A stretch of 64,000 nucleotides of DNA from an uncultured Flavobacteriales bacterium (GTDB lineage Bacteria; Bacteroidota; Bacteroidia; Flavobacteriales; BACL11). The position numbers and the translations under genes are program-made. The notes beneath the pieces were generated by a model that saw only the letters and a program-made list of their open reading frames with translations, searched no databases and was not told the origin of the DNA. Below are positions 37,543 to 42,941 of this stretch, in pieces (within the stretch, counting starts at the first letter, position 1; each line of letters starts with the position of its first letter). Location: contig CAJQJY010000004.1 of assembly GCA_905478765.1 (NCBI GenBank), forward strand, positions 1-64,000, given 5' to 3'.

Positions 37543-39738
37543 TTAATTTTTAATTAATTTTCTTGTTTCATTCAGTTTTTTTCCTTCAAACTTAATTTGG
37601 TATACTCCTTTTGCAAGGCTTGAAATATCTAAATATTCTTTATTTGAAATTCTATTTTCCAATACTAAACCTGCCTTAATATCATATATTTTTATAGAAG
37701 TGTTTTCTTCTGTTAAGTTTGAAATGTAAATTTTATCATTAGATGGGTTGGGATAAATATTTACTATATCCGGACCATTTAATTCCGTTCCAATACTAGT
37801 TGTTGCACAAGAAGGATTTAATCCTGTGCTAATTGAATTTGTAATATTTGTTGATGATGCATTATCAATTTCATTGTTATCATTAATAAACATTCCTACT
37901 ATATGAATTTGTGATTGATCCCAAGAAGGATCTAAAGTAAATTCAAAACAAATAGTTTCACTATCTCCCGTAATATATGAATTTGAGGTTAATGGTTCTC
38001 CCATAAATCCTGGAGCAACACTTCTAGCTACATGGCGATAAATCATTTGCGAAGCAGGTACATTTGATGGCATATTAGCCCAATCTGTTCCATCCACATC
38101 TATTAAAGAACCATTAGCTCCTCCACTGTATGAATTTGATTGATAGTAAGAAGTAGCGGTTCCTGTAACAGAATCTTCAACCAATACACATGCTAATTTA
38201 TAATTACCATTTATGTTATTTTGAATATCAACAGTTAGAGAAACTTTTAAAGTATTTCCATTTAATTCTGCTCCGTTTGTAATAATTCCATTTGGTTCAA
38301 CAATAATTCTTTGAAGAAAGTCTTGCTTAAAGTTTCCTGGATCTATATCTACTCCTCTATCTACTAATCCACTTGGGTAACCAGAAATATAAGGGGCCAT
38401 GCCATTATCATAATCTGGATCAGTCATAGGATCTCCGTTATGTACTGCTATTCCTTGCCAATATCCTTCATAATCTTTATCCATCCAATTTAATGCTACT
38501 GCTCCCCTTGGACACCAACCACACCATGTACCTGTAGCTTCCTCTCCAATAACTAATTTACCTTCTGCTGGAATTATAGCCTCTATTTGAATTGACATAA
38601 TATCATCTGAACTATCATCATCAGGTCCTAAATTATTAACATTATAAACAGTAGCGGTTCCTATATTAAAACCACCTCCTAATATTATTGAATTACTCAT
38701 ATTTACTGTGTAAATATCTTGAGTTGACATATTTACTCCGGTTATATTTTCTGTTATTGTAGTTCCATTATATTCAAAATCAACATCAAAAGACGTAATA
38801 TTAGATATACCTAAATTTCTAACATCAACAGATGGATTTCTATCTTGTCCTTGTATTCCTGTTATTGGGTTAACTAATATAACTTGAGCATTCAAATCTT
38901 CTAAATTTGGTTCTATATATGACCAACAAACATCATCTATATAAAATTGGTGACCTATAATAGGATATAAATCTAAGGAAGCAATCTTATTTACAGAGTT
39001 AGTAAAACTTCCTTGACTTTGGTTATCTATAAATAATTCCCAATTATTATTAGTTAAATCACAAACTAGTTTTAACTCAAACCAAACTTCTTCTGGATAT
39101 GTAGTAGTTAAATAATTAAAACCATTTCCTGTGTTTTCTAAAATTAAAGAACCTAAATCCATTTTACAATCTAAAGACCATACATTTCCTGGAATATTCT
39201 CTGCTTGAAAATTAAAATATGCTCCTGTTCCTGTATTAACATAAAACATTGAAGAATATTCAAAAACACCAATATCATAAGGGGCCGCAGTTCCAAAAGG
39301 TAATACTATATCTTGAGCTCCTTGAGTAGCACCAGAGAATAAATATAAAGAATTTGAACCACTATAACTTAGATTACTATTTATATTAGCATCATCTGCA
39401 AAAGGTGCAGTTGTTCCACTCATTAATTCCCCCCAAGTATTCCAATTAGATAAAGTTTGAGCAACTGGATCTCCATTTTGATATGAATCAAAATTTTCAC
39501 ATATACTTGCTTGAGGTGAAGTAGAAGAACAAGGTCCATATATCCATGAAGTTACTCCTCCAAAATTTTCAGCTACACAATCATTACTATATTCTACACC
39601 ATTGCATCCACAAACTGGGTCATATATCATAGTACATATAGCAGTAAGATCAATTAAGCTACTATCCACACATGTTGTTTGAGAATTTGAATTGAAAAAA
39701 AAGAATATTCCAATTAATAAAGTAATTATTTTTTTCAT
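37543..39738 (-). CDS. T9SS-exported protein with Kazal-like and Omp28/thioredoxin-like domains
   Basis: A 731-residue secreted protein. The signal peptide is residues 1-19. A cysteine module at 34-70 (YDPVCGCNGVEYSNDC) resembles a Kazal-type protease-inhibitor repeat. Next comes a beta-rich, lectin/LamG-like region (about 80-275) and an Ig-like stretch (280-390). An Omp28-type domain follows with a thioredoxin-like CGWC at 406-409 in EEATGTWCGWCPRGAV. The C-terminus has a type A T9SS sorting domain (IYPNPSNDKIYISNL, ending KLIKN). The last two parts are confident; the Kazal match rests on cysteine spacing. Function is unknown, but redox or adhesive roles are plausible. The 555 bp upstream are extremely AT-rich. 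Confidence 0.85.
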   Translation of the reverse strand: MKKIITLLIGIFFFFNSNSQTTCVDSSLIDLTAICTMIYDPVCGCNGVEYSNDCVAENFGGVTSWIYGPCSSTSPQASICENFDSYQNGDPVAQTLSNWNTWGELMSGTTAPFADDANINSNLSYSGSNSLYLFSGATQGAQDIVLPFGTAAPYDIGVFEYSSMFYVNTGTGAYFNFQAENIPGNVWSLDCKMDLGSLILENTGNGFNYLTTTYPEEVWFELKLVCDLTNNNWELFIDNQSQGSFTNSVNKIASLDLYPIIGHQFYIDDVCWSYIEPNLEDLNAQVILVNPITGIQGQDRNPSVDVRNLGISNITSFDVDFEYNGTTITENITGVNMSTQDIYTVNMSNSIILGGGFNIGTATVYNVNNLGPDDDSSDDIMSIQIEAIIPAEGKLVIGEEATGTWCGWCPRGAVALNWMDKDYEGYWQGIAVHNGDPMTDPDYDNGMAPYISGYPSGLVDRGVDIDPGNFKQDFLQRIIVEPNGIITNGAELNGNTLKVSLTVDIQNNINGNYKLACVLVEDSVTGTATSYYQSNSYSGGANGSLIDVDGTDWANMPSNVPASQMIYRHVARSVAPGFMGEPLTSNSYITGDSETICFEFTLDPSWDQSQIHIVGMFINDNNEIDNASSTNITNSISTGLNPSCATTSIGTELNGPDIVNIYPNPSNDKIYISNLTEENTSIKIYDIKAGLVLENRISNKEYLDISSLAKGVYQIKFEGKKLNETRKLIKN

Positions 39739-40726: not shown

Positions 40727-41761
40727 ATGAAAAAATATATATTTATACTTTTTATAGCAATATCAATTTCTTCTTTTTCTCAAGACAATATAAAATACTC
40801 AGAAACAATTATTGCTTCAGATTTAAAAAAACACCTTACAATACTTGCATCTGATTCTTTAGAAGGTAGAGAAACAGGTAAGCCAGGACAAAAAATGGCT
40901 GCTGATTATATAATGAATCATTTTAAAAACATAGGTATACCTCCTTATAAAAAAAAAACCTACTATCAGAAATTTAAAGTTAAATCAGGCAGGCATCTTT
41001 GCAAGTGTGATGATTGTGATCAGAGTTTAGTAAAAAAAATATTGGGGAGTAAAAAGAAAATAAAAGGCGAAAATGTGTTGGGTTATATTGAAGGAACAGA
41101 CCTAAAAGAGGAGCTTATTATTATTACCGCTCACTATGATCATTTAGGAAAACATGATAGTTTAATTTTTAATGGGGCTGATGATGATGGAAGCGGAACG
41201 GTTGCAGCAATGGAAATAGCAGAAGCCTTTATGCTTGCTAAAAAAGTAGGGAAAGGACCAAGAAGATCTGTTTTAGTAATGGCTGTTTCAGGAGAAGAAA
41301 AAGGACTTTTAGGTAGTAAATATTATGCAGACCACCCTATTTTTCCTCTTGAAAAAACGGTTGCTAACTTGAATATTGATATGATTGGTAGAATAGGAGA
41401 TTTTAAAGGCAATCCTAATTATGTGTACCTCATAGGGGCAGACAGGCTAAGTCAAGAACTACACTATTTAAGCGAACAAATAAATAAAGAGTATATAGGT
41501 TTAGAATTAGACTATACTTTTAATGAAGAGGATGATCCAAATAGATATTATTACCGATCTGATCATTATAATTTTGCTAAAAATAATATTCCTGTAATTT
41601 TCTATTTTAATGGGATTCATGAAGATTATCATAAAACAACTGATACAGTAGAAAAAATTAATTTTGATAAAATTCAGAAAATAACAAGATTGATATTTTT
41701 AACTGCATGGGAACTTGCAAATAGAGATAAGAGAATTGAGTTGGATAAAAAAGAAAACTAA
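40727..41761 (+). CDS. Secreted M28-family zinc aminopeptidase
   Basis: A 344-residue peptidase with a signal peptide (MKKYIFILFIAISISSFSQ). The di-zinc site is complete: His in ITAHYDHLGK, the bridging Asp in NGADDDGSGTVA, the catalytic Glu pair in SGEEKGLLG, Asp in NLNIDMIGRIG, and the final His in the DYHKTTDTVEKI region. The DSLEGRETGKPGQ N-terminal block is typical of this subfamily. An insertion with HLCKCDDCDQS (about residues 92-102) is a cysteine cluster I do not associate with the family. It follows rpiB by 1 bp and overlaps the convergent PET-hydrolase-like gene by 4 bp. Confidence 0.92.
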   Translation: MKKYIFILFIAISISSFSQDNIKYSETIIASDLKKHLTILASDSLEGRETGKPGQKMAADYIMNHFKNIGIPPYKKKTYYQKFKVKSGRHLCKCDDCDQSLVKKILGSKKKIKGENVLGYIEGTDLKEELIIITAHYDHLGKHDSLIFNGADDDGSGTVAAMEIAEAFMLAKKVGKGPRRSVLVMAVSGEEKGLLGSKYYADHPIFPLEKTVANLNIDMIGRIGDFKGNPNYVYLIGADRLSQELHYLSEQINKEYIGLELDYTFNEEDDPNRYYYRSDHYNFAKNNIPVIFYFNGIHEDYHKTTDTVEKINFDKIQKITRLIFLTAWELANRDKRIELDKKEN

Positions 41762-42864
41762 TCTTTAATTATTTTTATTTTACTATTTTTGTAGTATATA
41801 AAATAGATGCCTTTTTTTAAAAAAGAAACATCAATTTTAGAGGTTTTTAATACTTCACTCTTCAAAACCTTACCATCTATATTTATAATTTTATAAAGTT
41901 TGTTTTTAGCTAACATCCCTTTCAAAATAATTGTATTATTTACTGGATTAGGATAAATAATTAAATCATTTTTATAATCAAGAACACTATTGGGAATGGA
42001 GCAGTCTATGTTAGTTTCATAATCAGAGGCAGTAGTAGGTATATCTAACAATAAAGGGCAGTAGCAACTGTCATTAACAAGGTATTTTTTTAACCAAGAA
42101 AGACCCATTCTTCCCACCTCACCAAACCCACCTAAAGGTGTGTTTGCAATTGTGTGTTCACCACCAAACACTTCATATTTAAGTTTTTTTGTAGAACTTG
42201 GGGTGTAGTTGTACTGTATATCAGCATGAGAGCCTGGCGGGGCTACAACATCAATTTGTCCACTAAAAATAAGAATTGGAGAGTCGTGGTTTAACAATGC
42301 AGGAGAAACAACTGATGGGTCGATCCAGGGACAGAAAGCAAGAACAGCTTTTATATTAGGATCTTCAGCTGCAACTAATTGAGCACCCCCACCTCCCATT
42401 GACCACCCACCAAGGGCAATAAGGTTAGTGTCTAACTTATTAAATAAAGAAGAGTTTGTTCGGTTATTTTCAGCTTTCAAACTAATTAAAGCATCTTGTA
42501 GGGCTTTTTTTCTATCAATTACCTCATCCCAAATACTATTAGTACCAATAGTCATACACACAATACCATGAGAAGCTAAAAAAGAACCCCAAGCCTGAAT
42601 ACTTAATTCTGGGTTAGCATACCCCGGAATAATAATAATACTTGGCAATAAACCACTTGTGTTTTCTGGATAATATATAGTAGAGCCATAATAATCATTA
42701 CCATCTCTTATTCCATCACTTTCTAAATAAGAACTTACAGTATAACTACCATTAAAAGTTGCTGATGATGTAGTCACATCATTGCAATCTGAATTAGTTT
42801 GACAAAAAGATATAAAAGGAAGTAATAATAAAAAATAAATTAGTATTGTTTGAAGTTTTTTCAT
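41758..42864 (-). CDS. PET-hydrolase/cutinase-like serine hydrolase with T9SS sorting tail
   Basis: A 368-residue secreted alpha/beta hydrolase starting at ATG 42864. The signal peptide ends near FISFCQ. The catalytic core resembles bacterial cutinases and PET hydrolases. The nucleophile elbow GWSMGGGG contains S155, with W154 before it. D205 is in SGQIDVVAP and H237 in GGEHTIAN. The oxyanion Tyr is Y82 in PGYAN, and the flexible Trp is W180 in CPWIDP. A terminal Cys pair (region SCYC to IDCS) fits the conserved C-terminal disulfide. The extra disulfide of Ideonella PETase is absent. A type A T9SS domain (IYPNPVNNTIIL, ending IIKD) closes the protein. Polyester activity is not proven; it may be a general esterase. 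Confidence 0.85.
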   Translation of the reverse strand: MKKLQTILIYFLLLLPFISFCQTNSDCNDVTTSSATFNGSYTVSSYLESDGIRDGNDYYGSTIYYPENTSGLLPSIIIIPGYANPELSIQAWGSFLASHGIVCMTIGTNSIWDEVIDRKKALQDALISLKAENNRTNSSLFNKLDTNLIALGGWSMGGGGAQLVAAEDPNIKAVLAFCPWIDPSVVSPALLNHDSPILIFSGQIDVVAPPGSHADIQYNYTPSSTKKLKYEVFGGEHTIANTPLGGFGEVGRMGLSWLKKYLVNDSCYCPLLLDIPTTASDYETNIDCSIPNSVLDYKNDLIIYPNPVNNTIILKGMLAKNKLYKIINIDGKVLKSEVLKTSKIDVSFLKKGIYFIYYKNSKIKIIKD

Positions 42865-42867
42865 TTT

Positions 42868-42897
42868 CAAAAATACAAAAAATAAAACCCCAATCAA
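42868..42897 (-). promoter_or_regulatory. Promoter of the PET-hydrolase-like gene, three bases from its ATG
   Basis: On the minus strand: TTG 42897-42895, 19-nt spacer, TATTTTTG 42875-42868, AAA, ATG 42864. Both elements match the consensus, and the transcript should be leaderless or nearly so. This also argues against the upstream in-frame ATG at 42897. Confidence 0.6.
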
Positions 42898-42941
42898 AAA
42901 CAGCAGGTTTTATAATTATATTACGGCAACCAACAATTGTT

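Follow-up and report, generated by a model that had tools for sequence, protein, structure and literature searches.

A PET30-like enzyme with a type IX sorting tail predicted in an uncultured marine Flavobacteriales bacterium

Introduction

The presence of PETase-like enzymes in seawater is commonly interpreted as an answer to plastic. In the type II enzyme IsPETase, the S214/I218 pair frees a tryptophan to wobble; in ordinary cutinases, the same positions are held by His/Phe.

The closest described systems are PET30 from Kaistella jeonii and PET27 from Aequorivita sp., in which a PETase domain is followed by a type IX secretion system (T9SS) sorting tail. Both are active on PCL, Impranil and PET, and the published assay gave a 38-fold higher terephthalate yield for PET27 than for PET30 (PMC8767016). 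Polycaprolactone, BHET and Impranil are hydrolysed by all of PET27–PET30, but PET28 and PET29 are inactive on PET despite having the same motif as PET27, and PET30 carrying F80Y and/or Y178W lost its activity on PET and BHET (PMC8767016). The clamp of the tail-bearing Bacteroidota enzymes described there takes the form Phe-Met-(Trp/Tyr/Ala), and a single bridge, C262-C285, was reported for PET30 crystallized as a tail-less construct (PMC8767016). PET93 (Maribacter) and PET94 (Arenibacter), also secreted Bacteroidota enzymes, act on PET with a Tyr-Met-Trp clamp, possess no PorC tail and are not part of the PET27/PET30 cluster (PMC13188925). Finally, none of the M1–M4 enzymes tested in a marine survey was active on PET, and Flavobacteriales-dominated clades were placed at M2–M4; the M5-PETases of marine Pseudomonadales carry a C-terminal DxDxR(Y)xxFxC element (PMC12224614).

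Here, we analysed a window (the whole stretch of 64 000 nucleotides from an uncultured Flavobacteriales bacterium) in which a first-pass annotation had proposed a PET-hydrolase-like enzyme exported by the type IX system.

The gene and its family

The coordinates given in that annotation (41758–42864) are right, and the strand, left unstated there, is the minus strand: an ORF for a 368-aa protein runs from the ATG at 42864 to a final sense codon ending at 41761, followed by the stop at 41758–41760 (table 1). The plus strand is full of stops across the same interval.

Table 1. Features of the PETase-like gene and its product (positions in the window).
Feature	Position	Strand	Basis
Whole coding sequence, 368 aa, stop included	41758..42864	-	sequence
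Signal peptide, residues ~1-21, cleavage probably before Gln22	42802..42864	-	by eye; hydrophobic stretch then QTN in all genus members
Catalytic domain, residues 37-281, Pfam PETase PF12740	42022..42756	-	159.9 bits
Nucleophile elbow GWSMGGGG, residues 153-160; Ser155 nucleophile, Met156 oxyanion/clamp	42385..42408	-	alignment
Tyr82, oxyanion/clamp; IsPETase Y87; Phe in PET27 and PET30 (PMC8767016 Table 3)	42619..42621	-	alignment
Trp180, clamp; IsPETase W185; Tyr in PET30	42325..42327	-	alignment
Asp205, triad acid	42250..42252	-	alignment
His237, triad base	42154..42156	-	alignment
Cys27, near mature N-terminus; predicted partner Cys267	42784..42786	-	co-occurrence with Cys267, 30/30 scorable sequences
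Cys267, first Cys of C-Y-C; predicted partner Cys27	42064..42066	-	co-occurrence with Cys27
Cys269, second Cys of C-Y-C; pairs with Cys288 by homology (PET30 C262-C285)	42058..42060	-	alignment; PMC8767016
Cys288, partner of Cys269 by homology	42001..42003	-	alignment; PMC8767016
T9SS type A sorting tail, residues 303-366	41767..41958	-	PF18962, TIGR04183

Upstream, the minus strand reads TTTG-N19-TATTTTTG at 42868–42898, just after a hairpin-like repeat and ending 3 bases before the ATG, a sequence which we take to resemble the Bacteroidota promoter consensus. Similar sequences stand at the same place in most relatives, and a promoter-like element so close to the start could mean a leaderless mRNA. 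Across the window, TAnnTTTG lies within 12 bases or less of the start in three of 56 ORFs, versus 0.5 expected.

The catalytic domain matches the Pfam PETase model far above its cut-off of 28 bits (E = 1e-46), whereas the dienelactone hydrolase model remains below cut-off (18.9 versus 21) and the NCBIfam model for bis(hydroxyethyl) terephthalate hydrolase is sub-threshold (116 bits versus 520). No other PF12740 match over cut-off was found in the genome (1.61 Mb, 98.6% complete). Among solved structures, PET30 (7pzj) is the best match, at 299 bits (E 3e-88) over residues 7–367, tail included, followed by a Burkholderiales cutinase at 163 bits. Catalytic-domain identity reaches 49% with PET30, compared with 37–40% for BbPETase, Ple628, Ple629, PET2 and 8otu, 35% for IsPETase and 33% for LCC and TfCut2 (sequences of the last three checked against PDB, TfCut2 as in 4cg1). 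Chance similarity is thus excluded by the two E-values and by features kept throughout the clade.

In the phylogenetic tree, the window protein and PET30, the sole named member of its clade, group with Bacteroidota and Marinimicrobia sequences apart from type I and II PETases (support 100/100 without outgroup, 96/93 with it); long Marinimicrobia and outgroup branches make the order within this clade less sure. The proposed PETase-like family and the link to the Kaistella enzyme are accordingly borne out, and the placement among unrelated dienelactone or peptidase-type hydrolases that would have spoken against them was not found.

Structure prediction was informative for the fold only. AlphaFold models based on six sequences were weak (pLDDT 49 and pTM 0.41 for the full protein; 55 and 0.63 for the catalytic domain). 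The catalytic-domain model, template-free and weak as it is, retrieved 7pzj first with Foldseek (TM approx. 0.68), then IsPETase entries, but such models do not settle cleft shape or disulfides. The fold is nevertheless secure by homology, owing to the 49% identity to a crystal structure.

The protein shares with PET30 (7PZJ, PMC8767016) the PETase domain and T9SS type A tail, the triad, the GWSMGGGG elbow, a C-Y-C motif plus a later Cys, and an N-terminal Cys; the host, by contrast, is from a marine genus, and its genome is small (1.6 Mb). PET27 shows the same architecture (PMC8767016). Judged from its sequence, the product is a PETase-family enzyme much like the characterized PET30, hence of a kind already known. 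It very probably belongs to the secreted serine esterases (polyesterase-lipase-cutinase type), being exported by the T9SS and acting on natural substrates, with PET as a side activity at most. The analysis itself shows the family and clade, the residues of triad and clamp, the tail, the genes for the T9SS, the synteny and the purifying selection; localization, disulfide pairing, substrates and PET activity are what we infer.

Active site and activity on PET

Alignment to the PDB-verified IsPETase sequence (6EQE) superimposes Ser155, Asp205 and His237 on S160, D206 and H237, and Trp154, Met156, Tyr82 and Trp180 on W159, M161, Y87 and W185. The elbow with Trp before the Ser, the matching contexts of D205 and H237 and the oxyanion Tyr, all noted in the first-pass annotation, are therefore confirmed. 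Its ‘wobbling Trp’ stands in part: Trp180 occupies the right position, but the wobble itself fails because the S214/I218 pair is replaced by His213/Gln217. Besides its T9SS tail and its 35% identity, the window protein also differs from IsPETase in lacking the C203-C239 bridge and C273.

The clamp, Tyr82-Met156-Trp180, departs from the Phe-Met-(Trp/Tyr/Ala) pattern of tail-bearing Bacteroidota enzymes, which is a regularity of the published set rather than a defining trait; PET30 has Phe-Met-Tyr and PET27 Phe-Met-Trp. Tyr-Met-Trp occurs in every copy of the genus in which these positions are present, as well as in one f15 sequence (L026). A Tyr-Met-Trp clamp read from the sequence of a tail-bearing Bacteroidota enzyme is a modest new point.

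It may be asked whether this IsPETase-like clamp makes the protein a functional PET hydrolase, depolymerizing PET at least as well as PET27. The identity of Tyr82, Met156, Trp180 and Trp154 to their IsPETase counterparts is consistent with such an activity, as are the type II length of the loop from the catalytic His to the following Trp (His237 and Trp257 lie 20 residues apart, the IsPETase spacing; LCC shows a three-residue gap) and the PET activity of the Tyr-Met-Trp enzymes PET93 and PET94 (PMC13188925). However, clamp residues alone are not decisive, since single-residue logic fails within the clade: PET28 and PET29 are inactive with the motif of PET27, and F80Y or Y178W abolished the activity of PET30 (PMC8767016). 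Moreover, the window protein resembles M5-PETases in domain, triad and GWSMGGGG elbow, but reads VNDSCYCPLLL at residues 263–273 instead of containing the DxDxR(Y)xxFxC element, and no M1–M4 enzyme in the marine survey proved active (PMC12224614). The literature is in conflict on this last point, as the PET30 sequence also aligns without the M5 element, yet PET30 acts on PET. On balance, PET hydrolysis at the level of PET27 is possible but doubtful, and activity of the PET30-like esterase on plastic, if any, is probably incidental.

Disulfide bridges

The active-site disulfide, a type II feature (IsPETase C203-C239), is absent from the window protein (Gly202, Ile239), as had been noted, and from PET30 too. 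The suggestion that its loss makes for a promiscuous, possibly cold-adapted enzyme found no support: PET27 and PET30, without it, act on PET, and PET28 and PET29 do not (PMC8767016). The C-terminal Cys pair also reported earlier does exist, though as Cys269-Cys288, the equivalent of PET30 C262-C285, and not at the IsPETase position, where C273 corresponds to Leu273.

A second bridge, C27-C267, is predicted because both cysteines are always present or absent together. Both were detected in 25 sequences of the clade and both are missing from L022 (Ser/Ser; a sequence containing ambiguous bases), the Marinimicrobia protein L010, LCC, IsPETase and TfCut2, and none of the 30 scorable sequences displayed only one of them. 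This pattern suggests a second disulfide in the window protein; it amounts to two or three independent contrasts, all concordant and too few for significance. The combination of a Tyr-Met-Trp clamp with C27-C267 is an arrangement not reported for PET30.

Homologues in sister genera

Six proteins from sister genera of the same family (L018, L020, L021, L037, L038 and L042) read GGFSKGGGG where the window protein reads GGWSMGGGG, and L022 shows a similar elbow with one ambiguous residue. The oxyanion Met is a Lys in all seven. In these PETase-like proteins, moreover, the triad His is followed by an Asp, and the C-terminal tail is short and of a different type. Such a change from Met to Lys in the elbow suggests, from sequence comparison, an altered substrate or chemistry.

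A more specific proposal can be made, which we put forward very tentatively and consider unlikely as a whole: the genus would hold a subtype of T9SS-exported PETase in which the Tyr-Met-Trp clamp is combined with a C27-C267 bridge anchoring the N-terminus at the end of the catalytic domain, maybe an efficient cold-water polyesterase, while in the sister genera a remodelled elbow (GFSKGGGG, His-Asp) would serve a different substrate or chemistry.

Export by the type IX secretion system

The sorting tail claimed in the first-pass annotation is found by both PF18962 (39.2 bits, Pfam) and TIGR04183 (35.5 bits versus a cut-off of 23, NCBIfam). The genome also encodes the PorU sortase (1316 bits), PorV (490 bits), whose gene adjoins that of PorU on contig C19, and SprA (2702 bits); 47 T9SS tail matches were retrieved from it, 42 of them over cut-off. 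Export by this route, predicted from the tail, is credible because the genome encodes this machinery and about 40 other T9SS cargos. Anchoring as a lipoprotein via Cys21 was rejected by eye, this residue being Gly in L007 and the surrounding sequence a misfit to the lipobox.

Two further sets of tail-bearing proteins were observed. The minus strand of the window encodes at 37543–39738 a 731-aa T9SS cargo that combines an Omp28 domain and a sorting tail with a Kazal-type inhibitor domain near its N-terminus. Elsewhere in the genome, contigs C2 and C6 encode three 162-aa proteins (L067:66-551, L069:295-780 and L069:4086-4571) that bear T9SS tails and closely resemble one another, with near-identical N-termini; two of them lie approximately 4 kb apart on one contig.

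Among 23 tail-bearing proteins scanned, we identified M43 peptidases in four, a C25 peptidase in one, and PNGase F-like, PLD-like, two sortilin-like and SprB-repeat proteins, but no other esterase. As the peptidases and the PNGase F-like and PLD-like cargos point to protein- and detritus-feeding, the enzyme might act on monomeric or lipid esters (e.g. algal or zooplankton acyl esters) as a lipase-like or short-chain esterase, without meaningful activity on insoluble polyesters. That no other polyester pathway gene was found agrees with this, as does the modified elbow of the sister genera, which implies that substrates shift easily. Yet we regard it as unlikely, given that PET27–PET30 all hydrolyse polycaprolactone, BHET and Impranil (PMC8767016) and that aromatic residues of the clamp are conserved throughout the genus.

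Distribution, selection and age

Copies were detected in 18 of 396 genomes of the order and, across the phylum, in one of 395, namely the window's own; 10 of the 11 genomes of one f3 genus carry the gene, and several genomes of the window's genus show no copy. L005, L006 and L009 share the order M28 peptidase, PETase-like gene, aldehyde dehydrogenase; in L007 and L008, where contigs end, one side of it is seen (all these loci come from metagenome-assembled genomes titled uncultured Flavobacteriales or Cryomorphaceae). At dS values of 0.2–0.8, dN/dS is 0.09–0.13 for the catalytic domain and mostly 0.2–0.4 for the tail. The PETase-like gene is under purifying selection and syntenic across the genus.

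A linked polyester pathway at the locus was ruled out by its neighbours: M28 peptidase, RpiB, aldehyde dehydrogenase, sodium/proton exchanger, M50 peptidase and Dxr (the last by eye). In another genome of the genus (L019:1-2111), the PETase domain runs into approximately 240 extra residues, fibronectin-like by eye, and then a T9SS-like tail; the neighbour genes of the window were not seen within that interval.

One copy (L007:143-1225, the same locus as L016; NIOZ-UU109 genome) contains two in-frame stops, TGG92 to TAG and CAA203 to TAA, with otherwise normal dN/dS, reflecting either recent loss or assembly error. Together with the genomes of the genus without a copy, these stops make the enzyme look dispensable.

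The patchy distribution in the order and phylum could be taken as a sign of recent adaptation to plastic pollution, e.g. through acquisition by transfer. This is extremely improbable: synteny across the genus, the dS range and strong purifying selection suggest a gene far older than plastics, and no relative was found in viral contigs. The ring-hydroxylating (Rieske) dioxygenase alpha subunit (PF00848) was not found in the genome by a search positive in four of 14 controls, and a tannase/MHETase search gave no match, which says little as the controls were silent too. Use of PET-derived terephthalate as food by the known route is unlikely, since no Rieske dioxygenase was found. The gene thus probably predates plastics and, being both old and under selection, would not have been kept by PET as its substrate.

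Proposed function and significance

Led across the inner membrane by its signal peptide, the PET30-like esterase would fold in the periplasm, where one or two disulfides would form at its C-terminal end. The T9SS would then carry it through the outer membrane and PorU would remove the tail, leaving the enzyme on the cell surface or outside. There, Ser155-His237-Asp205 would hydrolyse ester bonds in a cleft that would be open and lidless, while Tyr82 and Trp180 would hold the acyl or aromatic portion of the substrate as a clamp. Natural esters or polyesters derived from plankton or detritus are probably the substrates under selection, and a slow side activity is likely, as for PET30, on aliphatic polyesters, PET fragments in soluble form and perhaps amorphous PET.

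An old, syntenic and selected gene for a T9SS-exported enzyme, in a genome where no terephthalate dioxygenase was found, argues that counts of PETase-like genes measure natural esterases. In addition, the genus is a natural test case for two disputed predictors of PET activity among Bacteroidota enzymes, the M5 element and the Tyr-Met-Trp clamp.
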